Of a stretch of DNA of 64,000 nucleotides, positions 27,188 through 63,924 are shown in pieces. The notes beneath the pieces are model-generated. The model did not search any database. It was not told where the DNA came from and saw only the letters and a list, made by a program, of their open reading frames with translations. A program made the translations under genes and the position numbers. The DNA comes from Hippea maritima DSM 10411 (GTDB lineage: Bacteria; Campylobacterota_A; Desulfurellia; Desulfurellales; Hippeaceae): NCBI RefSeq assembly GCF_000194135.1, contig NC_015318.1:448501-512500 (forward strand). The letters are read 5' to 3'. Position 1 is the first letter of the stretch; every line of letters starts with the position of its first letter.

Positions 27188-28967
27188 ATTTTTAGGCAAA
27201 ATAGAGCAAATAAAAAAGAACATCTACTATCTCTTTGCTGTTGTAGTTTTATCTTTTGTTATACTTGTTTTGAGACTTTTTTATCTTCAAATCGTTAAAG
27301 GGAATTATTTTTACTCATTAGCTAAGAGAAACTCTATAAGGCTCATAGGTATTGCCCCTCCAAGAGGCGACATAAAAACCTCAGATGGTGTATTCTACGC
27401 AAAAAACGTTCCCTCTTTCAGTGTTTATCTCTACAAGTCAAAAAACCTTGACCTTGATAGGTTAAATACGATTTCTCAGTTGCTTAACCTGGATGCTTTT
27501 TCTTTAAAGGAAAAGCTTAAGTTGATTCCTTATTATAGAAGCTTGCCCATAAAGCGCAATGTGGAAAAAAGCACGGTATTTAAGTTGTTGTTTAATGAAG
27601 ATATATCTCCTTTTGTTAATATAGAGGTTACGCCTAAGAGGGTTTATCCTTCAAATCCTTATGCTTACGCAAATATAGTTGGGTATATATCTGAGGTTTC
27701 AGTAGATGATTTGAGAAGAAACCCATCTTTTCGCGTTGGTGAGCTTATTGGAAGAAAAGGTGTAGAAAAGAAATATGACTCTGTTTTAAGGGGTAGATGG
27801 GGTTATAAAGAAGTTGAGGTATCCTCAAAAGGCGCTATTGTTAAGGTTATATCAACTACCCCTCCTAAAAAGGGAAAAAATATTACTTTAACGATAAATT
27901 CAAAGTTGCAGTCGTTTATCTATCAGCAATTAAAAAAGAATAATCTCAAAGGGGCAGTGGTGGTTCAAAGGCCAAATGGTGCTATACTTGCGTTGGTTGA
28001 TAGCGATAGTTTCAATCCCAATTTTTTTGTCGAAGGACTCTCGAAAAAAGAATGGAATAATCTAAAAAAAAGCGGATTGTTAAATCTATTTGACATATCA
28101 GTTCAGGGAGCTTTTCCTCCAGGCTCGCTTATTAAGCCCTTTATGGCTCTGGCTACACTTCAAGAGGATATCATAACGCCAAACACAATTGTATTTTGCC
28201 CCTATGCTATAAAGATAGGTAAATACACATACAGAGACTGGAAAGCAGGCGGGTTTGGTAATATAAATCTCTACAGAGCTATAGAGAGCTCCTCAGATGT
28301 TTTCTTTTATCAAATGGGTATGAAGCTTGGCATAGATAAGATAGACTATTATCTGTCTAAATTTGGCTTCGGTAGATCACCAGGGCTTTTCTCTTACTGC
28401 ACAAAGGGAAACCTACCTTCCCGTACATGGAAGTACAAAAAATACTCCCAAGGTTGGTATATAGGAGACACAATATCGACATCAATAGGGCAGGGTTTTT
28501 TCTTGGCAAGTCCATTGCAAGTTGCTCTAGCTTTTTCCATTATAGCAAACGATGGTGTCGGGTATAGACCTTTTTTGGTTGAGGGTGTGAAGCCATTTCC
28601 TTTGTATGTGTTTAAAAGCAAATACTACGAAGATATAAAGAAAGCTCTGTGGCTTGTTGTTAATGGGTCTTACGGTACGGCTAAAAAGGCTCAGATTGAG
28701 GGGCTTAATATTTGCGGTAAAACAGGAACTAGCCAGGTTGTGTCAAGTTCGGTCTACAAAAAGATAAAAAAGAAAGTTAGAGAGGGTAGAATGCCCATAA
28801 AGAAGGCACTGAAGTACTACCCCCACGCCTGGTTTGCCTCATTTGCACCAAAGGATAAGCCAAAAGTCGTAGTGGTGGTATTTTTGGAACATGGAGAATC
28901 CAGTGCCAACGCTGCAGCATTTGCCAAATTGGTCTATGAAAAGCTCATCGAATTAGGACTTATTTGA
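27171..28967 (+). CDS. mrdA: penicillin-binding protein 2 (elongasome transpeptidase)
   Basis: A 598-residue class B PBP. One N-terminal transmembrane helix (about residues 20-38) is followed by a pedestal domain with PPRGDIKTSDG and a transpeptidase domain. The catalytic Ser319-X-X-Lys322 lies in PPGSLIKPF, the second motif reads SSSDVFFYQMG (Ser-X-Asp as in other PBP2 proteins), and KTGTS is present. It completes the mre cluster; rodA is not next to it. The last eight bases overlap the convergent pilC. Confidence 0.93.
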   Translation: MPRRDRFLGKIEQIKKNIYYLFAVVVLSFVILVLRLFYLQIVKGNYFYSLAKRNSIRLIGIAPPRGDIKTSDGVFYAKNVPSFSVYLYKSKNLDLDRLNTISQLLNLDAFSLKEKLKLIPYYRSLPIKRNVEKSTVFKLLFNEDISPFVNIEVTPKRVYPSNPYAYANIVGYISEVSVDDLRRNPSFRVGELIGRKGVEKKYDSVLRGRWGYKEVEVSSKGAIVKVISTTPPKKGKNITLTINSKLQSFIYQQLKKNNLKGAVVVQRPNGAILALVDSDSFNPNFFVEGLSKKEWNNLKKSGLLNLFDISVQGAFPPGSLIKPFMALATLQEDIITPNTIVFCPYAIKIGKYTYRDWKAGGFGNINLYRAIESSSDVFFYQMGMKLGIDKIDYYLSKFGFGRSPGLFSYCTKGNLPSRTWKYKKYSQGWYIGDTISTSIGQGFFLASPLQVALAFSIIANDGVGYRPFLVEGVKPFPLYVFKSKYYEDIKKALWLVVNGSYGTAKKAQIEGLNICGKTGTSQVVSSSVYKKIKKKVREGRMPIKKALKYYPHAWFASFAPKDKPKVVVVVFLEHGESSANAAAFAKLVYEKLIELGLI

Positions 28968-30165
28968 TTGTTTCACCCATCTTGAATATTGGAAGATACA
29001 TAGATACAACTAAAAATCCTATTATGCCGCCAAGAACGATTATAAGTATAGGTTCTATCATAGAAGTTAGGTTTTTTACTGCATTATCTACTTCTTCTTC
29101 GTAGTATTGGGATATTTTCTGCATCATTTCATCCAAAGTTCCCGTCTCCTCGCCTACGGCCGCCATCTGTATGACCATGTCAGGAAATTCTCCGCTTGAG
29201 GCCATAGAGAAGGAGAGGTTTTCTCCTTTTTTAACCATATCTTTAACTTCTGTAAGCGTTTCCTCCATAATAAGGTTGCCAGCTGTTTTGGCACTTATGC
29301 TTAGGGCGTCTAATATATCAACGCCGCTTGAGCTTAAGGAGGCAAGAATTGTTGTAAAGTTCGCAATAGAACCCTTTCTTGCAAGTTCTCCAAAGATGGG
29401 TAGGTTGAGCAGAACTTTATCCATAAACCTTCTCATAGCATAGCTTTTTTTATACCCTATTCTTAATGCAATCAATAGGGCTATAAATATAATAAGCATA
29501 GTTAGAAAGTATTTCTTCATAAATAAACTTACGTTTATAACTATCTGGGTTGGTAATGGTAGGTGCATGCCGCTTGAGGAATACATATCGGCAAATGTTG
29601 GTATGACAAAAGTCATAATAAGTGCTATAACACCAACAGCAACAATTGTTACCATAGTTGGATATATTAGTGCTCCTTTTATCTTTCTCTTTAAAGTAAT
29701 GTGTTTTTCCATCATTTCGGACAATCTTTTTAGAACCCCGTCAAGGTTACCCGTTTGTTCTCCAGCGTTAACCATGTGAATATACATGGGTGAGAATACA
29801 TCTTTATGATCACTTAAAGCTTGAGATAAGCTCGCCCCACTTTCTACCCTTTGCTTTACTGAGTATAACACCTCACCCATTTTTTTTGTTTCTGCTTGTT
29901 CTGCCATTATATTTAAAGATTCATCCAGCGGAAGACCGCTTGAGAGCATGCTGGCGAGCTGCTTTGTTACTATCATCAATTCCTTGTCTTTTATTTTTGA
30001 TTTTAGAAAAGGAAGTTCTATGTCTTTTGGGGCCGGCTTCACATTGATAACCGATATCCTTTTAGACTTGAGCTTGGCCATGGCCTCGCCCTTTGAAGAC
30101 GCTATTATCTCTCCCTTTCTAACCCTTCCCTTTATATCCTTACCTTTCCATCTAAAATAAGGCAT
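28960..30165 (-). CDS. pilC: type IV pilus inner-membrane platform protein PilC
   Basis: GspF/PilC family protein of 401 residues with two repeated cytoplasmic T2SSF domains and three hydrophobic segments (around residues 170-190, 220-240 and 375-395). Family blocks include LASMLSSGLPLDESLNIMAEQ, NAGEQTGNLDGVLKRLSE and GEETGTLDEMM. Together with PilB and PilT just upstream it forms the pilus motor platform. Pilins and the secretin are elsewhere. Confidence 0.92.
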   Translation of the reverse strand: MPYFRWKGKDIKGRVRKGEIIASSKGEAMAKLKSKRISVINVKPAPKDIELPFLKSKIKDKELMIVTKQLASMLSSGLPLDESLNIMAEQAETKKMGEVLYSVKQRVESGASLSQALSDHKDVFSPMYIHMVNAGEQTGNLDGVLKRLSEMMEKHITLKRKIKGALIYPTMVTIVAVGVIALIMTFVIPTFADMYSSSGMHLPLPTQIVINVSLFMKKYFLTMLIIFIALLIALRIGYKKSYAMRRFMDKVLLNLPIFGELARKGSIANFTTILASLSSSGVDILDALSISAKTAGNLIMEETLTEVKDMVKKGENLSFSMASSGEFPDMVIQMAAVGEETGTLDEMMQKISQYYEEEVDNAVKNLTSMIEPILIIVLGGIIGFLVVSMYLPIFKMGETIK

Positions 30166-30168
30166 ACT

Positions 30169-31263
30169 TTACCCCTTTGCGTATCTTATTTTATCAAGCT
30201 CCCTTTGAATTGCCTTTTTATCATTGCTTGCCTCGATAGCTGCTTCGTAGCTTATGAATCCTTTTTTATAAAGACTAATTATTGATTGATTCATGGTCAT
30301 CATCCCTGTTTCTGTTTGGCCCATTTGCATCGATGAGTAAATTTGAGGTATCTTGTTTTCTCTTATGAGGTTTCTAATGGCTGAGTTTGGTATCATTATT
30401 TCCATGGCCAATACCCTGCCTTTGCCATCTTTTCTTTTGATGAGGGTTTGGGATGCAACCCCTTGGAGTGCAACAGATAGCTGCGTTCTGACCTGTTCTT
30501 GCTGATTGGGTGGGAATACATCTATTATTCTGTTTATTGTTTCTGGAGCTGAATTTGTGTGAAGTGTTGCAAAGACCAAATGTCCTGTTTCGGCAACGGT
30601 TAAAGCTGCCTGTATTGTTTCAAGGTCTCTCATCTCACCAATAAGGATTACATCAGGGTCTTGGCGAAGTATATGCTTTAGGGCTGAGGCAAAGCTCTTT
30701 ACATCACTTCCAACCTCCCTTTGGTCTATAAGGGCTAATTTGTGCGAATATGTGAACTCTATTGGATCCTCTATTGTAATTATATGCACCTTTCTTTCTG
30801 CGTTAATTTTATCCAACAACGCAGCAAGTGTAGTTGATTTTCCACTTCCTGTTGGTCCTGTAACCAATACTATTCCTTTTTTTAAGTGGGCAAATTGCTG
30901 TACTACAGGTGGTATGCCTAATTTATCAAACTGGGGTATCTCAAATGGTATCATTCTAAAGGCGCCTGCTATTGTACCCCTTTGTATATAAACATTTGCC
31001 CTGAAGCGGGATAGTTTTGGGATTCCGAATGAAAAGTCAACATCAAAATCTTCCTCTAATGTTTTTTTCTGTAGTTCTGTCATTACGCTGTAGCAGAGGT
31101 TTTGGGCATCGGCTGGGGAGAGCTCGTCGTATTCTTCCATGTCCATAAGTTCACTGTCCACTCTTACCTTTGGTCTTGCGCCGGCTGTTATATGTAAATC
31201 CGATGCCTGAATGCTTATCATCTTTTCCAGTAGCTCTACTAAATCTTGAGCCTTTTTACCCAT
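30169..31263 (-). CDS. pilT: type IV pilus retraction ATPase PilT
   Basis: Hexameric ATPase of 364 residues that retracts pili and drives twitching motility. It starts with the PilT-type lead SDLHITAGARPKVRVD, has Walker A GPTGSGKST, an Asp box, Walker B LIGEMRD and His box TLHTN. The retraction-specific AIRNLIRE motif near residue 305 separates it from PilB-type ATPases. It lies between pilB and pilC with 3-22 base gaps. Confidence 0.95.
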   Translation of the reverse strand: MGKKAQDLVELLEKMISIQASDLHITAGARPKVRVDSELMDMEEYDELSPADAQNLCYSVMTELQKKTLEEDFDVDFSFGIPKLSRFRANVYIQRGTIAGAFRMIPFEIPQFDKLGIPPVVQQFAHLKKGIVLVTGPTGSGKSTTLAALLDKINAERKVHIITIEDPIEFTYSHKLALIDQREVGSDVKSFASALKHILRQDPDVILIGEMRDLETIQAALTVAETGHLVFATLHTNSAPETINRIIDVFPPNQQEQVRTQLSVALQGVASQTLIKRKDGKGRVLAMEIMIPNSAIRNLIRENKIPQIYSSMQMGQTETGMMTMNQSIISLYKKGFISYEAAIEASNDKKAIQRELDKIRYAKG

Positions 31264-31285
31264 CTTATCTCCCCTCTTTGTTATC

Positions 31286-32983
31286 TTAGTTAAAAGTTAC
31301 GTTCATTACCTCTTCAATGGTTGTTACACCCTCTTTAATCTTTTTAAGTCCACTCATCCTTAAGGTTGCCATTCCTTCTTCGATAGCTTGTTTTCTTATT
31401 TCCTCAACACTTGCACTCTCTAGTATCATTCTTCTAATTTTTTCTGAAATTGGCATGACCTCATACAAAGCTACTCTACCTTTGTATCCGGTTTCGTTGC
31501 AATAATCACATCCTTCGCCTTTATACACCTTTACAGTTTTTGCTTCCTCCTTCGAAAACCCTATTTCCTCCAAAGCTTCAGGGGGTACATCTAATTGCTT
31601 TTTGCAATATGGGCATATCTTTCTTACGAGCCTTTGGGCTAAAACCAAGATCAAGGAAGATGCTATGAGGTAACGCTCTATTCCCATATCAACAAGCCTC
31701 ATTACTGTGGAGGGAGCATCGTTGGTATGGAGGGTAGAGAAGACCAAATGTCCTGTTAAGGCAGCCCTTATTGCTATCTCTGCTGTTTCTGAATCCCTTA
31801 TTTCACCGACCATTATTATATCTGGATCTTGGCGTAGGAACGATCTTAACGCAGATGCAAATGTTAAGCCTATATCCTCTTTTACATGAACTTGATTTAT
31901 TCCGTCAAGGTTGTATTCAACCGGGTCTTCAACGGTCATTATATTGACATCATCTTTATTTATCTTGTTTAAAGAAGCATATAGAGTTGTGGATTTTCCA
32001 CTTCCTGTTGGGCCTGTTACCAATATCATTCCGTATGGTTTTTGTATGGCTTTTAGGTATCTCGTTAAATCATCATCTTCGAATCCTAATTTTTCTAAGT
32101 CGACTCGTACATTACTTCTGTCTAATATTCTCATAACAACCTTTTCGCCGTATACCGTAGGAAGCGTGGATACACGGAGATCTATGTCTTTTCCTGAAAC
32201 TTTTATTCTTATTCTACCGTCTTGTGGTAATCTTTTTTCTGCTATGTTTAGTTTTGACATAATCTTGATGCGTGATGTTAGCTTTGGAGCCATACTTCTT
32301 GCGAATGTCATGATTGTTTTTAATTTACCGTCTATTCTATATCTTATTCTTAGTTCATTTTCGTAAGGCTCTATGTGTATATCGCTTGCCCCGCTTACTA
32401 CAGCTCTTGATAGTATTGTATTGGCAAGTTTTATAATGGGTTCATCTTCTGCAGACCTTTCTAAATCTTTTACATCTTCGGCCTCTTCCTCTTCCTTTAT
32501 TACGTTTACATCAGATGAAAATTCTGCTATTTCATCTGCAATTTCTTCAAGTTCTGTTGATGTTCCATAATATTTGTCTATAGCCCTTAAAATTGAGCGT
32601 TCGTTTGAAAACAATGGAATAACATTCATGCCTGTGACGAATCTTACTTCATCTAAAGCAAATATATTTGTTGGGTCTGATATGGCTACTTTTATCTTGT
32701 TTTTTTCTATAGCTACAGGTATTAATGTATACTTTTTTGCTATTTGAGGCGGAACTTTTTTTATTACGTCTTTCGATATATCTATAGAATTTAGGTCTAC
32801 ACTTTCTACACCGTATTGTTTGCTTAAAAAATCATTCAGTATTTTTTCATCTACGAATCCCTTTTCTATAAGTATAGTCCCAAGCTTTTTTTTGCTTTTT
32901 TTCTGTTCCTCTAAGGCTTCATCAAGTTGCTGTTGAGTTATAACATTATTCCATAATAAAAGTTGGCCTAATAAAGTTGTCAT
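31286..32983 (-). CDS. pilB: type IV pilus assembly ATPase PilB
   Basis: Extension ATPase of 565 residues. An N-terminal T2SSE-N domain (residues about 1-150) is followed by a linker and a AAA-like core: Walker A GPTGSGKSTT, Walker B MVGEIRD, His box TLHTNDA. A four-cysteine zinc site (CPYC and CDYC) is present and is typical of PilB and GspE. It overlaps the aroE stop by four bases. The absence of other general-secretion genes and the adjacent PilT favour a pilus role over type II secretion. Confidence 0.93.
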   Translation of the reverse strand: MTTLLGQLLLWNNVITQQQLDEALEEQKKSKKKLGTILIEKGFVDEKILNDFLSKQYGVESVDLNSIDISKDVIKKVPPQIAKKYTLIPVAIEKNKIKVAISDPTNIFALDEVRFVTGMNVIPLFSNERSILRAIDKYYGTSTELEEIADEIAEFSSDVNVIKEEEEAEDVKDLERSAEDEPIIKLANTILSRAVVSGASDIHIEPYENELRIRYRIDGKLKTIMTFARSMAPKLTSRIKIMSKLNIAEKRLPQDGRIRIKVSGKDIDLRVSTLPTVYGEKVVMRILDRSNVRVDLEKLGFEDDDLTRYLKAIQKPYGMILVTGPTGSGKSTTLYASLNKINKDDVNIMTVEDPVEYNLDGINQVHVKEDIGLTFASALRSFLRQDPDIIMVGEIRDSETAEIAIRAALTGHLVFSTLHTNDAPSTVMRLVDMGIERYLIASSLILVLAQRLVRKICPYCKKQLDVPPEALEEIGFSKEEAKTVKVYKGEGCDYCNETGYKGRVALYEVMPISEKIRRMILESASVEEIRKQAIEEGMATLRMSGLKKIKEGVTTIEEVMNVTFN

Positions 32984-33801
32984 AGCTCCATATCTCCCAG
33001 TAGATTTTGTGCCGCTTCTTTGCTAAAATCGATACCTGTCCATATTTTAAATGCATAGTAAGCTTGTCCAATAAACATATCCATACCATTTATGGTTGTC
33101 AACCCTTTTTGTTTTGCCGCCTTTAGGAGGGGTGTGTCAAAATAGATGACATCTACGACAATAGACTCATTTATCCAATTGGTATTTATTGGTGTTTCGT
33201 TACCCTTTAAACCAACCGATGTGCAGTTTATAATTACATCGGCTTTGTTTATGATCTCCTTATCATTTAAATTGCCAACTTCTATCTCTATTTTGTCGTT
33301 GAACTTTTTTTGAATATTTTTTGCTTTTGTTATATCCCGGTTTAAGAGAAATATTCTTTTTATGCCCAATTTATAGAGTGCATAAATGACAGATACCGAC
33401 ACTCCGCCGGCCCCAAGCACAACTACAACATCTTCTTCACTATAAAACTTTGTGTATTCCATAAACATATCTTTAAAACCCAAAAAATCTGTATTGTAGC
33501 CGTATAATTTGCCGTTTATGTTTTTTATAGTGTTTATTGATTGAAGGAAGCTTGAATCCTCGTCTGTTTCATCTATAAGTTCAAATGCTTTGTTTTTAAA
33601 GGGAACAGTAATGTTTGCGCCTTTTATGCCCAGAGCTTTTATTCCTTCTATAGCTTCTTTTATATGTTGAACCTCGAAAGCTACATAAACAGCATTTATA
33701 CCGTAATATTCAAACATAAATGTATGAAGTATGGGGGAGAGGCTGTGTCTTACTGGATTTCCTATAACGCAGTAGACATCTGTATCAGCTTGAATGTACA
33801 T
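32980..33801 (-). CDS. aroE: shikimate dehydrogenase
   Basis: NADPH-dependent reduction of dehydroshikimate in aromatic amino-acid synthesis. The substrate site SLSPILH (Ser20-Ser22) and catalytic Lys69 in NITVPFKNKAFELID are visible, with NTDFLGF and the nucleotide motif VLGAGGVS. At 273 residues it is normal. It overlaps tsaE by 17 bases and pilB by four; the link to pili is probably positional only. Confidence 0.93.
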   Translation of the reverse strand: MYIQADTDVYCVIGNPVRHSLSPILHTFMFEYYGINAVYVAFEVQHIKEAIEGIKALGIKGANITVPFKNKAFELIDETDEDSSFLQSINTIKNINGKLYGYNTDFLGFKDMFMEYTKFYSEEDVVVVLGAGGVSVSVIYALYKLGIKRIFLLNRDITKAKNIQKKFNDKIEIEVGNLNDKEIINKADVIINCTSVGLKGNETPINTNWINESIVVDVIYFDTPLLKAAKQKGLTTINGMDMFIGQAYYAFKIWTGIDFSKEAAQNLLGDMEL

Positions 33802-34207
33802 TTATTATTCTTCCTCCGTTTTTGTCCTTAAACTCTATTACAATATCGGGTTTTATTTTTAATTTATCTGGCCATTCGATGAAAAATATGCCTTCGTTCG
33901 AGAAATAATCGTAAATTCCTGAGTTTATGAGCTCTTCATCGCTTGTTATTCTATATAAATCCATATGAAAAATACCCTCTTTATACTCGTTTACCAGTGT
34001 AAAGCTTGGACTGCCCTCAAATTCATCGTCTTTTAAACCCAAAGCCTCCAAAGCAAATCTCACAAAGGTTGTTTTTCCGCTCCCTAAGTCCCCCTTTAAA
34101 AAAACTACACACCTTTTTTTATTTGATATAAGATTTTTTACTATTTCCTTTGCTATCTTTTTAGTTTCATTTTCACTTTTGCTTACATAACTTTTGTTGT
34201 TAATCAT
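33785..34207 (-). CDS. tsaE: tRNA t6A biosynthesis ATPase TsaE
   Basis: Works with TsaB and TsaD to install the t6A modification on ANN-decoding tRNAs. The P-loop GDLGSGKT is at residues 39-46, then SPSFTLVNEY and HMDLYRI, and a C-terminal FFIEWPDKL; all are family hallmarks. At 140 residues it is typical. It starts the tsaE-aroE-pilB-pilT-pilC unit. No Shine-Dalgarno is present and the -10 ends seven bases from the ATG, so a leaderless mRNA is likely. Confidence 0.93.
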   Translation of the reverse strand: MINNKSYVSKSENETKKIAKEIVKNLISNKKRCVVFLKGDLGSGKTTFVRFALEALGLKDDEFEGSPSFTLVNEYKEGIFHMDLYRITSDEELINSGIYDYFSNEGIFFIEWPDKLKIKPDIVIEFKDKNGGRIINVHSS

Positions 34208-34214
34208 ATTTTAA

Positions 34215-34243
34215 GTTATACTATTAATAGCTTTACAATTCAA
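34215..34243 (-). promoter_or_regulatory. leaderless-type promoter of tsaE-aroE-pilBTC
   Basis: On the minus strand TTGAAT (34243-34238), 17 bases, then TATAAC (34220-34215) ends seven bases before the tsaE ATG. It physically overlaps the divergent heptosyltransferase promoter (34232-34259), so the two should not be occupied by polymerase at once. Confidence 0.55.
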
Positions 34244-34259
34244 GCTTTAAAGATATAAT
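34232..34259 (+). promoter_or_regulatory. leaderless-type promoter of the heptosyltransferase gene
   Basis: TTTACA (34232-34237), 16 bases, then the consensus TATAAT (34254-34259), ending eight bases before the ATG at 34268. No Shine-Dalgarno fits in the space. Confidence 0.65.
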
Positions 34260-34267
34260 TGTATCCG

Positions 34268-35248
34268 ATGAAAATTCTTGTTATTCAGATAAGGCAATTG
34301 GGAGATGTGCTTTTATCTTCTCCTTTGGCTGAAGCTATAAAAGTCTTTGACTCATCTTACGAGGTTCATTTTTTAACATCCAAAGTAGCTTATCCCATAT
34401 TAAGTGAAAACCCATTTATAGATGATATAGTTGTTCTGGAAGATGGCTTAATTGGGGAGTTTAAAGTTGCAAAGGTTATAAGAGCTAACCACTACGATGC
34501 TGTTTTAGATATTCAAAGAACGGGTCGCTCAAAGAGGCTAACCTTTTTGTCTTCTGCAAAAATAAGGGCAGCCTTTGACAGAAAAGGCAATAATTTTTAT
34601 TACAATACGTTGATAAAGAAAAAAACCAGAGGTTATACACCTTTTGAAAGACTGGATTTACTTAAAGCTGTTGGTATAGAAAATCCAAAAAGGGCCATGC
34701 CCAAGCTGTTTTTCTCCGATACTGTAGAAAGAAGTGTGCTTGAGTATCTAAAGGGTAAGGATATAGATAATTATTTCGTAGTTGCGCCAGCAGCGAGAAA
34801 AAAAACCAAGATGTGGGATGCAGAAAAATTTGGTATGCTTGCCAGCAAGTTATCAAAGCATTTTGGTCTAAAAGCTATTGTGGTTTATGGTTCAGAGGCA
34901 GAAAGGGAAATTGGAATAAAGTGTTCATCGTTTATCAAAGATGCCCATTTAATAGAAAAACCGTTTGACATAAAAAGCTTTGCAGCACTTATAAAAAATG
35001 CAAGTTTTATGATAGGAAATGATTCGTTTGCTTCTCATGTGGGTGTGAGTCAAAATACAAAGACAGTGGTTGTATGCGGTCCAACAAGTGGGTGGTTTTT
35101 GGAGAACAATAACACATTACTTGTTTATAAAGGTTTAAAATGCCAGCCGTGCAATAACCCATCAGGCTGTAGGTTTAACTTTGCTTGTTATAAAGAATTA
35201 GATGTTGATTTTGTTTTAGAAAAAAGCCTTGCTTTTTTATCTGAGTAG
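34268..35248 (+). CDS. GT9-family glycosyltransferase (heptosyltransferase-like)
   Basis: A 326-residue GT-B enzyme of glycosyltransferase family 9, the LPS heptosyltransferase family. The N-terminus ILVIQIRQLGDVLLSSPLAEAI is diagnostic, and the C-terminal half has VVYGSEAEREIG, FMIGNDSFASHVG and VVCGPTSGW. The late CX2C pairs (KCQPCNN and further Cys) are common in WaaF/WaaQ-like members. It fits with gmhB and kdsA at the window edges. The exact acceptor (heptose I, II or III) cannot be assigned. It is monocistronic, and its end overlaps the convergent HD-GYP gene by 12 bases. Confidence 0.85.
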   Translation: MKILVIQIRQLGDVLLSSPLAEAIKVFDSSYEVHFLTSKVAYPILSENPFIDDIVVLEDGLIGEFKVAKVIRANHYDAVLDIQRTGRSKRLTFLSSAKIRAAFDRKGNNFYYNTLIKKKTRGYTPFERLDLLKAVGIENPKRAMPKLFFSDTVERSVLEYLKGKDIDNYFVVAPAARKKTKMWDAEKFGMLASKLSKHFGLKAIVVYGSEAEREIGIKCSSFIKDAHLIEKPFDIKSFAALIKNASFMIGNDSFASHVGVSQNTKTVVVCGPTSGWFLENNNTLLVYKGLKCQPCNNPSGCRFNFACYKELDVDFVLEKSLAFLSE

Positions 35249-36754
35249 ACTTTTTATAAGAAGTTCACTGGATTTTGATAGCTTTTTGGCTTCCTTTTTG
35301 AAAAGAACGCATATCTCTGATTCATCTAATACTATGCGGTATATTAAGCCATTTTCTGTTCTTAGACTGCGGCTACCTTCTAGAATGATTTTATTTAGTG
35401 CTTCTAAAGGTATTTTGCCTACTAATTCTTTGATTGAGCCATTTTCTATGACTGCTATACCTTCAATTTTTTCTGAATCTTTTATAAATTCATAGATTGT
35501 ATTGAGTTTGGATTTTTTTTCTTTACCGTCTGAAACAACCTTACCTTTTAATTCAAATAAGAGTTTTTCGTAATTCTTTTGGGTTGCCTCTATTATTTTT
35601 TTGTACACTTTTATTTGGTGTTCTAAGCCTTTATTCTCGTTTTTTAGTTGAACCAATTGCCCAAAAATATCATTTCCCGTTTGTGCGTATTTTATAGATT
35701 TTTCCTTTTTAGATGATAATTTTTTTATTATCCAGAAGGTATCTGATGTTATTAATTTTTCAGCAGCATTGATTATGTTCTGCGGAAGTTTTCCTTCAAA
35801 CTGCCTTATTTCTGCTATGAGTTTTTTATATCCTGTTTTATTTTTGTATGTCCTTGCGGATTGTACAGCATCAAGTATGTCCGCCATTGCAATTATAGCG
35901 GTTGTATCGCTTAATTTGGTTGTTCCATCAGGATAGCCACTTCCATCTATCTTTTCATGATGATGCAAAACAGCATCTAATATTTCCTCTTTGAAACCCA
36001 ATGCTCTAAGTATTTCATGCCCTTTAATTACATGCATTTTTATGGCTTCAAATTCCTCTTTTGATAATTTGTCGTTCTTTTTTAACACATCAAACGGGAG
36101 AAATAGTTTGCCTATGTCATGCAACATGGCAGATAGTGCTATATCTTTTATCTTATCTTCAGGCGTGTTTAATATTTTTGCCAATTGCACTGCGTATTTT
36201 CTGACCCTGAATGAATGCATATAGGTTTCCTTGTCAAACCTATAAAGTATCTCAATAAGAAGTCTTAATAAAGAAAATGCATTTGATTTACTTGTGAGTT
36301 TTGCAAGTTCTATTTTTTCATCCAGTATAGCAATGACCGTATGTATTAGCTTTACTCTGTAAGGCTTTGTTTTGCTGTTTATGGCTACAACTATGTATTC
36401 ATCACTGCATTGTAGTTTTCTAAGGATAAAATTGGATAAACCTTCGTTTTTAAATATCTTTTTTGCTACTACCGGACTATTGAAAATTTCACCGTGCTTT
36501 AATAGATTTTTTATATTTATTGAGTATAGTCCATTTTGAGGAAAACCTAACTTAACTTTGCCGCTTTTATCTACTATATGTATAGAATCAACGTTCAATT
36601 TAACAAGTGGTTTTATTAAAGAGAGTCTTATCTGGCTTTGTGTTGTTTCTTTTAAATCTATATCTTTCAAGAGTATCCCACTTATTTGCATTATATCTTG
36701 CGTTATGTCTTGTAAATCTTTGCTTAGATCTTTTACTAATTCATTTATCTTCAT
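35237..36754 (-). CDS. HD-GYP domain cyclic-di-GMP phosphodiesterase-like protein
   Basis: A 505-residue cytoplasmic protein. Residues about 1-165 form an uncharacterised helical/PAS-like sensor. Residues about 170-335 are an HD-GYP domain with HSFRVRKYA, MLHDIGKLFLP, HVIKGHEIL, HHHEKIDGSGYPDG and MADILDA, so the metal ligands and the GYP signature are intact. A coiled coil (about 370-400) and a small C-terminal domain follow. HD-GYP enzymes hydrolyse c-di-GMP; activity here is inferred. It overlaps the upstream HDOD gene by four bases, so the two are coupled. Confidence 0.85.
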   Translation of the reverse strand: MKINELVKDLSKDLQDITQDIMQISGILLKDIDLKETTQSQIRLSLIKPLVKLNVDSIHIVDKSGKVKLGFPQNGLYSINIKNLLKHGEIFNSPVVAKKIFKNEGLSNFILRKLQCSDEYIVVAINSKTKPYRVKLIHTVIAILDEKIELAKLTSKSNAFSLLRLLIEILYRFDKETYMHSFRVRKYAVQLAKILNTPEDKIKDIALSAMLHDIGKLFLPFDVLKKNDKLSKEEFEAIKMHVIKGHEILRALGFKEEILDAVLHHHEKIDGSGYPDGTTKLSDTTAIIAMADILDAVQSARTYKNKTGYKKLIAEIRQFEGKLPQNIINAAEKLITSDTFWIIKKLSSKKEKSIKYAQTGNDIFGQLVQLKNENKGLEHQIKVYKKIIEATQKNYEKLLFELKGKVVSDGKEKKSKLNTIYEFIKDSEKIEGIAVIENGSIKELVGKIPLEALNKIILEGSRSLRTENGLIYRIVLDESEICVLFKKEAKKLSKSSELLIKSLLR

Positions 36755-38601
36755 GATAGGATATAAACCATATCGTTTATTTTTTCTTCTATTGTTTCCC
36801 TATGTTTTTCGAACATTGTTAATAGGTTAACCTTAAATTTATTTAAAAATAAGTTGTATGTGTGGTAGTTTAGATTATCTATGGAGTAGTTGCCATAGAA
36901 ATAGCCCAATGCCTTTGCTATGACGCTCGATGCGTGTATTAGATGCAGGGCTGAATCCATCTTTGACTTAACAGCAGGGTAGAGGTAGTATTTTATGGTC
37001 TTCCTAATGCGTTTTGGCAAGTTCCAGAGTATAGCCAATTCATAGCCTACATTTACACTTGCTGCTGGTAAAAATTTCAATTCTGCAACCTCGTAGGGTA
37101 TTTTTTCCTCTTCTATGTAATCTATGAACCTTTTGTACTCATCTGGATGATATTGTGCATAAAACATATCACCTATGGAATGGATTACGCTTGCAAGTGT
37201 TGCACCTGTGTTTATGTCTGCTTGTTCTTCTATAAATTTTGATATTGATAGGCAGGCTATTGAATATTTGTATAGCTTTTTTGTATAAGATGAATTGAAG
37301 AAATTTAAATATGATATGCTTAGGGATATTCCTAATATTTCTTCTGTTCCAAGCATAATAGCCGCTTTTTCTATACTTTTGATTTCTCTTTTTAGCCCAA
37401 AGAATGCCGAGTTTGCAAATTTTAATATTTTTGTTGTAATTGCGGCGTCTTTCTGTATTTCGTTTATGATCTTTTTGAACGGTGCTTCTTCGTTTATCAG
37501 CATAATAATATTGGATTGGACCTCAGGTAAGCTAAAAAGTTGAATATTGGATGTCAGGGTGCTTAAAAATTCGTTTTTTCTGTTTTTATCGTAAAATTTA
37601 CCTATATCTTTTAGATTTTCTATGAACTTTTCTTTTGCTTTTTCTATGCTAACTGCAGAGGCTTTTCCTTTGAGTTGTGCTATCCTTCTTGCACTTTTTA
37701 GATTTATAAATGGACTTACTATTTTCCTGAACTCAGGATCGTAGTAAAGATGGGCGACCGTTTCCTCATTTAGCGTTTCAATAGCTGAGTTTACTATAAA
37801 TGGCAACATTAATAACTCTTCTAAACTTGTATATTGGGTTTGAGTCTGGGGCTTTAGGTATTTTGCTATGTCTTCTTTGGCTTTTATGTTTTCTGTAATA
37901 CTATTCAGACTGTCTTTTGAAGGGTTGAATTCAACTATTCCCAAAAAAGATAGCTTTACTTTCATTTCATCAGTTTTGTTTTCTTTGATAAATGACTCTA
38001 TCTTTTTTAAAAGTATTTCTATTCCCCTTGTTTCATTCTGGTTATAAGGTATCACAATAAAACCAAAGTTTTCTATAATCAAGAAACCGTCAGCTCGTTT
38101 AAGGTTATTGTATACGCTTTTTAGAATAGGTGCCATCGAGAGTATATTTTCATCTGAGAAGTTTTCAAAACGGAATACCAATATTCTTATCCTATTTTTG
38201 TATTGTCTGAGTATTTTTTCTGCCGATTCCTGGCTGTTTATGGGTACATCCAACTTTGGTTTTTCCTTTTGTTTGCTCAGAACTCCTAACACCATAGACG
38301 GACTTTTAGCTATATAGTCAACACCTGATTTTTCCCAAAATGCGAAATTCTGAGAAGATATGGCTATAAAATAAGCCTTGTTTAGGTGGCGTTTGAGTTT
38401 TTCTATGGTTTTGGTTATGCCCGTTAAAGGTTTTTTGAATAAGAATATAACGGCCGCTGCATCTTTGTTTATTTTATCTACGAGTAGATTGCTTAGTTTG
38501 AAGCTGTTTGTTTTGAAGCCGCTCTCTTGAAGTTTTTTAATTATTGCAAACCCTCTGAGGGGATCATCAAATATAATTATAATCTCTTTTTCTTTACTCA
38601 T
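36751..38601 (-). CDS. HDOD-domain signalling protein
   Basis: A 616-residue protein. The N-terminus (IIIIFDDPLRGFAIIKKLQESG) looks like a receiver-type fold without the full phospho-acceptor set, and residues about 130-250 resemble a strongly diverged GGDEF-like fold. An HDOD domain occupies about residues 355-560 (LPEVQSNIIMLINEEA, then DAAITTKILKFANSAFFG). HDOD proteins are regulatory relatives of HD hydrolases and usually lack catalysis. Its neighbour is an HD-GYP protein in the same unit. A TATAAT -10-like sequence lies at 38624-38629 on the minus strand. Confidence 0.72.
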   Translation of the reverse strand: MSKEKEIIIIFDDPLRGFAIIKKLQESGFKTNSFKLSNLLVDKINKDAAAVIFLFKKPLTGITKTIEKLKRHLNKAYFIAISSQNFAFWEKSGVDYIAKSPSMVLGVLSKQKEKPKLDVPINSQESAEKILRQYKNRIRILVFRFENFSDENILSMAPILKSVYNNLKRADGFLIIENFGFIVIPYNQNETRGIEILLKKIESFIKENKTDEMKVKLSFLGIVEFNPSKDSLNSITENIKAKEDIAKYLKPQTQTQYTSLEELLMLPFIVNSAIETLNEETVAHLYYDPEFRKIVSPFINLKSARRIAQLKGKASAVSIEKAKEKFIENLKDIGKFYDKNRKNEFLSTLTSNIQLFSLPEVQSNIIMLINEEAPFKKIINEIQKDAAITTKILKFANSAFFGLKREIKSIEKAAIMLGTEEILGISLSISYLNFFNSSYTKKLYKYSIACLSISKFIEEQADINTGATLASVIHSIGDMFYAQYHPDEYKRFIDYIEEEKIPYEVAELKFLPAASVNVGYELAILWNLPKRIRKTIKYYLYPAVKSKMDSALHLIHASSVIAKALGYFYGNYSIDNLNYHTYNLFLNKFKVNLLTMFEKHRETIEEKINDMVYILS

Positions 38602-62643: not shown

Positions 62644-63924
62644 ATGGTCAAAAAAACATCAATTTATGTCTGTTCCAATTGCGGTTATACATCCTCAAAG
62701 TGGTACGGAAGGTGTCCAAATTGTGGTGAGTGGGGCACATTTGAGGAGAAAACTGGCAATGATAAGAAAAAATCCCGCGCTTTGGATTATAAAAAACCTG
62801 TGAAGATAAGCCAGGTTAATTACAGTGAGAGTTTTTTGTCCTTTGATGGTGATTTCAGTTCTCTGTTTAATAATAAACTCTCTTTGGGTGGCGTTTATTT
62901 GATTTCTGGGACCCCAGGGGTGGGTAAATCAACGCTACTTTTACAACTTGCTGGCTCTTTATCTAAAAATGGAAGGGTTGTGTATATTTCCGCTGAAGAA
63001 TCTTTAGGGCAGATTGCATCAAGGGGTGAAAGATTATCGGTAGGTGATGTAGAGCTTGTCTCAGAAAACGAACTCAATAGAATAATCGCCATGCTTGAGG
63101 TTGAAAGACCAACTATTGCTATTGTTGATTCTGTGCATACGATTTTTGATAGTGACCTCGATTATACAACAGGAGGAATTCAGCAGGTTAGGCACTGTGC
63201 GGAAAAATTAACGGAAGCTGCAAAAAGATTTTCTATAACACTTTTTATTGTTGCACACATTACAAAATCTGGTGCGATAGCAGGACCTAAAACATTGGAA
63301 CATATGGTTGATAGTGTTCTTTTACTTCAAGCTGAATCGAAGAGTGGCTTCAGGGTTTTGAAATTTCTTAAAAATCGATTTGGGTCTACAGATGAGGCTC
63401 TCATTCTTCAGATGACGGAAAAGGGTTTAGTTGAAGTAAAAGATCCTACCATTAAATTTATAGATGGGTTTAATCTAACCGATGGTGTATGCTATGGAGC
63501 TATAGCTGAGGGCAAACATCCTATTTTGATTGAGGTTCAAGCTTTATGTGTTCAAACCCCACTTGCCATACCGAGGCGTATAAGTGTAGGCTTTGATATA
63601 AACAGACTGAATATGCTTATAGCTGTCATAGAAAAGAGGGTTAATCTTCCTATGTTTAAGTATGATGTTTATGTGAATATTACAGGAGGAATTAAGGTAT
63701 CATCCACATTAATGGATGCCGCTGTTGTGGGTGCTATTTTTTCTTCGTTTAAGAAAAAGAGTTTCTTAGAGAAGAGTGTTGTTTTTTCTGAGATTGACTT
63801 GTCTGGTAGGCTCAGGCTTTTTGAGAGTGATAAGGCCATAGTTGATAAGCTTAAAGCGAGTGGCTTTAGTGTGATGTCGGCTTTGAATACAAAGGATGTA
63901 AAACGGCTTTACGATTCAGTTTAG
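62644..63924 (+). CDS. radA: DNA repair protein RadA (Sms)
   Basis: Helicase-like recombination mediator of 426 residues. A zinc finger (Cys10, Cys13, Cys24, Cys27) is followed by a RecA-like ATPase with GTPGVGKST starting near residue 89, the RadA-specific KNRFG motif, and a C-terminal Lon-protease-like domain (ITGGIKVSSTLMDAAVVGAI). It is the first gene of a plus-strand unit and is followed 18 bases later by kdsA. Confidence 0.95.
   Translation: MVKKTSIYVCSNCGYTSSKWYGRCPNCGEWGTFEEKTGNDKKKSRALDYKKPVKISQVNYSESFLSFDGDFSSLFNNKLSLGGVYLISGTPGVGKSTLLLQLAGSLSKNGRVVYISAEESLGQIASRGERLSVGDVELVSENELNRIIAMLEVERPTIAIVDSVHTIFDSDLDYTTGGIQQVRHCAEKLTEAAKRFSITLFIVAHITKSGAIAGPKTLEHMVDSVLLLQAESKSGFRVLKFLKNRFGSTDEALILQMTEKGLVEVKDPTIKFIDGFNLTDGVCYGAIAEGKHPILIEVQALCVQTPLAIPRRISVGFDINRLNMLIAVIEKRVNLPMFKYDVYVNITGGIKVSSTLMDAAVVGAIFSSFKKKSFLEKSVVFSEIDLSGRLRLFESDKAIVDKLKASGFSVMSALNTKDVKRLYDSV

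Follow-up and report, generated by a model that had tools for sequence, protein, structure and literature searches.

Interlocked divergent promoters with predicted leaderless transcripts between tsaE and a GT9-family gene of Hippea maritima

How are two divergent genes expressed when only 60 bp separate their start codons, and does packing their signals into so short a gap make the expression of one depend on the other? We asked this of a locus in the hot-vent bacterium Hippea maritima (published genome of strain MH2T, 1,694,430 bases; PMC3156395), working within a stretch of 64,000 nucleotides, hereafter the window, whose numbering is used throughout. The gap lies between ATG 34207 of tsaE on the minus strand and ATG 34268 of a glycosyltransferase family 9 (GT9) gene on the plus strand, in the following setting:

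28960-33801, minus strand: aroE, pilB (with an MshEN domain), pilT and a pilC-like gene, downstream of tsaE
33785-34207, minus strand: tsaE, heading the tsaE-aroE-pilB-pilT-pilC run and passing its NCBIfam cut-off
34215-34220, minus strand (read 34220-34215): predicted -10 element of tsaE, TATAAC, 7 nt from the ATG (6-7 nt in relatives)
34231-34244, no strand assigned: 14-mer CTTTACAATTCAAG, comprising two abutting -35 hexamers and one flanking base on each side
34232-34237, plus strand: predicted -35 element of the GT9 gene, TTTACA
34238-34243, minus strand (read 34243-34238): predicted -35 element of tsaE, TTGAAT, invariant in all eight genus members with the gene pair
34254-34259, plus strand: predicted -10 element of the GT9 gene, TATAAT, invariant wherever the pair occurs (10 of 10 genomes)
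34268-35248, plus strand: GT9-family (heptosyltransferase-like) gene by Pfam, starting at ATG 34268

The minus-strand run of tsaE, aroE, pilB, pilT-family and pilC-like genes fits the tRNA modification and pilus functions that had been read from the window sequence alone. Its gene ends overlap or are closely spaced, and the four downstream genes are probably co-transcribed with tsaE. pilB passes its NCBIfam cut-off, and its c-di-GMP-binding MshEN domain likewise scores above its own (31286-32983). For tsaE, ATG 34207 is the only plausible start codon, with an in-frame TAA two codons upstream; a misplaced start was rejected on account of this stop and because, on reading by eye, no in-frame ATG, GTG or TTG occurs before the Walker A motif. 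An in-frame stop no more than 2-3 codons upstream fixes the tsaE start in six genomes (G000, G001, G002, G004, G005 and G009), and its closeness leaves no space for a Shine-Dalgarno (SD) sequence downstream of the -10 element.

The plus-strand gene had been taken for an LPS core heptosyltransferase. Its GT9 family match stands, but in profile comparison it falls far below every specific NCBIfam heptosyltransferase cut-off, and a role in LPS core synthesis is plausible from its sequence but not established. Two further GT9 genes adjoin each other elsewhere in the H. maritima genome. TTG 34259 was discarded as an alternative start, as it overlaps the -10 element and is not conserved in relatives. 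At its far end the GT9 gene meets the next minus-strand gene in a tail-to-tail overlap; that gene is by eye HD-GYP-like and is followed by an HDOD-like gene (35237-38601). The same order, with pilus genes on one side of the GT9 gene and HD-GYP-like and HDOD-like genes on the other, is seen in genome G001. The MshEN domain of pilB and the HD-GYP-like neighbor together place the GT9 gene between pilus and possible c-di-GMP genes.

Within the gap, the minus strand reads TTGAAT-17-TATAAC-7-ATG into tsaE, and the plus strand reads TTTACA-16-TATAAT-8-ATG into the GT9 gene, the latter with 6-9 nt between the -10 element and the start codon in relatives. These opposed -35/-10 sets share 12 bp (34232-34243), with the two -35 hexamers abutting and each lying inside the spacer of the opposite promoter; the predicted transcription starts are ~59 bp apart. 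The original prediction of two overlapping divergent promoters within 60 bases was therefore correct in its elements and spacings, which relatives also keep. Its "crossed" -35 elements are interlocked in the sense that the promoters share DNA, but the hexamers themselves do not overlap in sequence. The footprint of RNA polymerase is far larger than this 12-bp overlap, and mutually exclusive polymerase occupancy is therefore very likely, judging from the geometry.

Consensus matching alone proves nothing in this AT-rich region: a sigma-70-like scan of 2.5 kb found 9 sites where shuffled sequences gave 9.9. The plus-strand promoter is the best of these nine (11/12 match), and the tsaE promoter is missing from the list because its -10 element lacks the final T. 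Dinucleotide shuffling of these 60 bp yields leaderless-distance promoters on both sides in 0.05% of cases, by criteria set post hoc. A 464-kb sample of the genome contains 33 divergent gene pairs with gaps of no more than 250 bp. Three of these pairs show interlocked promoters, against 0.35 in shuffles, and among those three only the tsaE/GT9 site has both -10 elements at leaderless distance. We regard conservation as stronger evidence for the promoters than these shuffle statistics.

Eight of the nine genus genomes keep the divergent tsaE/GT9 pair, as do two genomes from a second genus. In the eight, the 14-mer and both -10 cores are invariant and free of insertions or deletions, with unchanged spacing between them, while the proteins encoded on either side are only ~58-66% identical to those of H. 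maritima. Counted over seven distinct genus members, invariant columns comprise 14/14 positions of the 14-mer, 6/6 of the plus-strand -10 element and 5/6 of the minus-strand one, compared with 4/19 in the spacers and 0/15 in the leaders. All 10 genomes that have the pair place the start codon 6-9 nt from the -10 element; the codon itself is GTG for tsaE in four relatives and for the plus-strand gene in one. Its persistence across the genus argues that the arrangement is real.

The interlock, by contrast, is not kept everywhere. In the neighboring genus g4, both genes retain -10 elements at leaderless distance, but the plus-strand -35 element has moved out of the overlap, leaving the promoters side by side. 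In G001, a congener, a 277-aa gene is inserted between tsaE and the heptosyltransferase-like gene; the altered sequence starts immediately upstream of the tsaE -35 element, such that the tsaE promoter is whole and the heptosyltransferase -10 element is lost. The inserted gene (L088:3605-4753) appears to encode a membrane-spanning protein with no NCBIfam match, VKOR/thioredoxin-like by eye. It carries G+C-rich inverted repeats near both ends, and the intact tsaE promoter lies directly beside one of them.

The tsaE promoter is also found on its own. The pattern TTGAAW-17-TATAAV, 6 or 7 nt from the start codon, lies upstream of tsaE in 14 genomes of the family (four genera), including G001, G009, G010 and G013, in which no heptosyltransferase gene was found next door (in the last three, tsaE lies <500 bases from a contig end and adjacency is only partly visible). 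Within its -10 element TATAA is invariant, and the sixth base (window position 34215) is A, G or C and never T in all 14 genomes, reading TATAAC in H. maritima and TATAAA or TATAAG in relatives; the canonical final T occurs only at the plus-strand gene. An alternative minus-strand frame with a hexamer ending in T was rejected by inspection, as it is not conserved. It is as if the tsaE promoter were held below consensus, and this base together with the stronger plus-strand match would be consistent with a stronger promoter lying next to a weak one at tsaE.

Several observations point to leaderless transcripts on both sides. The -10 elements lie 7 nt (tsaE) and 8 nt (plus-strand gene) from the start codons, within a 5-9 nt leaderless criterion, and neither gene is preceded by an SD match of four or more bases in a genome where SD motifs peak 4-9 nt before starts. 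Relatives that have the pair likewise show no SD sequence close to either start. The comparative evidence and the absence of SD sequences thus lend strong support to the prediction of leaderless promoters at both genes; the literature we searched held no mapped transcription start sites for Hippea.

This character does not extend to the genome at large. In our 464-kb sample, which includes 20 stretches of 20 kb and holds 435 genes called by a simple ORF and codon-usage script (with approximate starts), SD motifs dominate, and general leaderlessness was rejected accordingly. The 157 genes that lack a clear SD sequence, however, show a peak of promoter-like pairs 6-9 nt before the start, with nine in the 5-9 nt bin where 1.6 are expected. 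Relatives also keep a leaderless arrangement at folE2 (most Desulfurellales genomes checked) and at aroK (most of the genus), and more weakly at radA. The peak, together with the conservation at folE2 and aroK, indicates a leaderless class that is small but real. Candidate members, which lack a strong SD sequence and have their -10 element 6-9 nt before the start, are radA (window position 62644), a queE-like gene (L064:3862-4497), aroK (L068:3853-4353) and, by eye, a feoA-like gene (L079:9985-10212). Upstream of folE2 (L079:17586-17677; G000:C1 near 1,397,600), the leaderless-distance promoter interlocks with that of a divergent gene whose product begins with a signal-peptide-like sequence.

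Together, these findings make it highly probable that the gap holds two functional sigma-70-type promoters, pointing in opposite directions with interlocked -35 elements and yielding leaderless or near-leaderless transcripts, and that this layout is mainly compact packing. Two sigma-70-type promoters would fire outward from the 60-bp gap, their -35 elements abutting in each other's spacers, with transcription predicted to start at, or within ~3 nt of, each start codon. The leftward mRNA would carry tsaE with aroE, pilB, pilT and pilC, and the rightward mRNA the GT9 glycosyltransferase; translation of each would begin on its 5′-terminal start codon without an SD sequence. One polymerase at a time would occupy the shared DNA, and this exclusion would probably have little effect at ordinary firing rates, leaving two separately maintained promoters that happen to be compactly packed. 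Against this explanation count the tsaE -10 element without a final T in 14 of 14 genomes, the GTG starts in some relatives, and the chance-level outcome of the regional consensus scan.

The overlap could instead be under selection as a regulatory device, with polymerase competition setting tsaE and the pilus genes against the glycosyltransferase. We know of no functional link between the products of the tsaE side and of the GT9 gene. A point in favor of such a device is the invariance of the -35 junction (14/14), compared with a mean pairwise identity of 67% for the chosen -35 elements of folE2 and aroK in the same genus, and the excess of interlocked pairs over shuffles in the sample is consistent with it. 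Yet adjacency is lost in G001, the promoters of g4 are not interlocked, and the tsaE -35 element (TTGAAW) is almost as well kept where there is no interlock, such that its conservation needs no overlap. Bidirectional promoters of E. coli can compete when one direction is strongly activated, but their basal activity is too low for this and shows no measurable competition (PMC12825309). On these grounds we consider a regulatory role for the interlock unlikely; the original proposal that tRNA modification and pilus genes are coupled to LPS core synthesis in opposite senses finds no support, given the split locus in G001, the side-by-side promoters in g4 and the E. coli precedent. Still more doubtful is its strongest form, an evolutionarily locked polymerase-competition switch in which the exactly abutting -35 pair would make expression of the leaderless type IV pilus/tsaE operon come at the cost of the leaderless surface-sugar transferase and vice versa, the tsaE -10 element being kept sub-consensus to set the balance.

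A further reading, that the 14-mer is or includes a transcription-factor binding site controlling both genes, appears improbable. It would account for the invariance of both flanking bases and for a partial dyad symmetry, CTTnAnnnnTnAAG, visible on inspection of the sequence, but back-to-back -35 elements give such symmetry anyway, and the tsaE half (CTTGAA) is also retained by itself elsewhere. Each genome has a single exact copy of the 14-mer, which therefore marks no regulon. Copies with one mismatch are few, and those inspected lie in other contexts; one that recurs in four genomes was set aside because it belongs to another promoter, upstream of a gene with an SD sequence of its own. That ordinary leaders run from real promoters further upstream inside the opposite genes, the near -10-like boxes being AT-rich coincidences, is very improbable: AT-rich DNA does yield many promoter-like matches and the tsaE -10 element is imperfect, but conservation is specific to the elements beside unconserved leaders, SD sequences are absent near both starts in every relative with the pair, and the 6-9 nt distance is conserved.

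Compact packing of two predicted leaderless promoters resembles several known systems in part. As in the bidirectional promoters described by Warman et al. (PMC12825309, PMC10268837), one stretch of DNA would bind polymerase in either orientation, one at a time. The definition of those promoters requires start sites separated by 7-25 bp and reciprocally overlapping -10 elements (PMC10268837); the ~59-bp separation of the predicted H. maritima starts is outside this range. The -10 elements here (34215-34220 and 34254-34259) are likewise separate, and only the -35 sides interlock. Closer are the classical overlapping back-to-back promoters of divergent operons, with divergent genes, overlapping core promoters and a short intergenic region; the present site differs in its predicted leaderless transcripts on both sides, its exactly abutting -35 elements and its lack of an evident shared regulator site. 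For leaderless mRNAs, the precedent is Campylobacter jejuni and Helicobacter pylori, in which a gnTAnaAT-N5-9-ATG arrangement is established (PMC3847290). The H. maritima genes are similar in having a TAnaAT-type -10 element at 5-9 nt, that of tsaE lacking the final T, and no SD sequence, as a small minority in an SD-dominated genome. However, all reported C. jejuni leaderless genes start with ATG, and leaderless genes of these species are reported to show little conservation between them (PMC3847290), whereas most of the family keeps the arrangement at tsaE, with GTG starts in some relatives. The site thus matches two known kinds, leaderless genes and overlapping back-to-back divergent promoters, combined with unusual exactness.

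For the family, tsaE in four genera and the leaderless-type upstream region of folE2 in most Desulfurellales genomes checked provide a clear comparative case for persistent leaderless promoters in bacteria. If competition at the -35 elements does occur, the tsaE/GT9 gap would be a minimal natural setting for testing polymerase interference with no regulator involved; without such competition, it would be a neat case of compact genome design.
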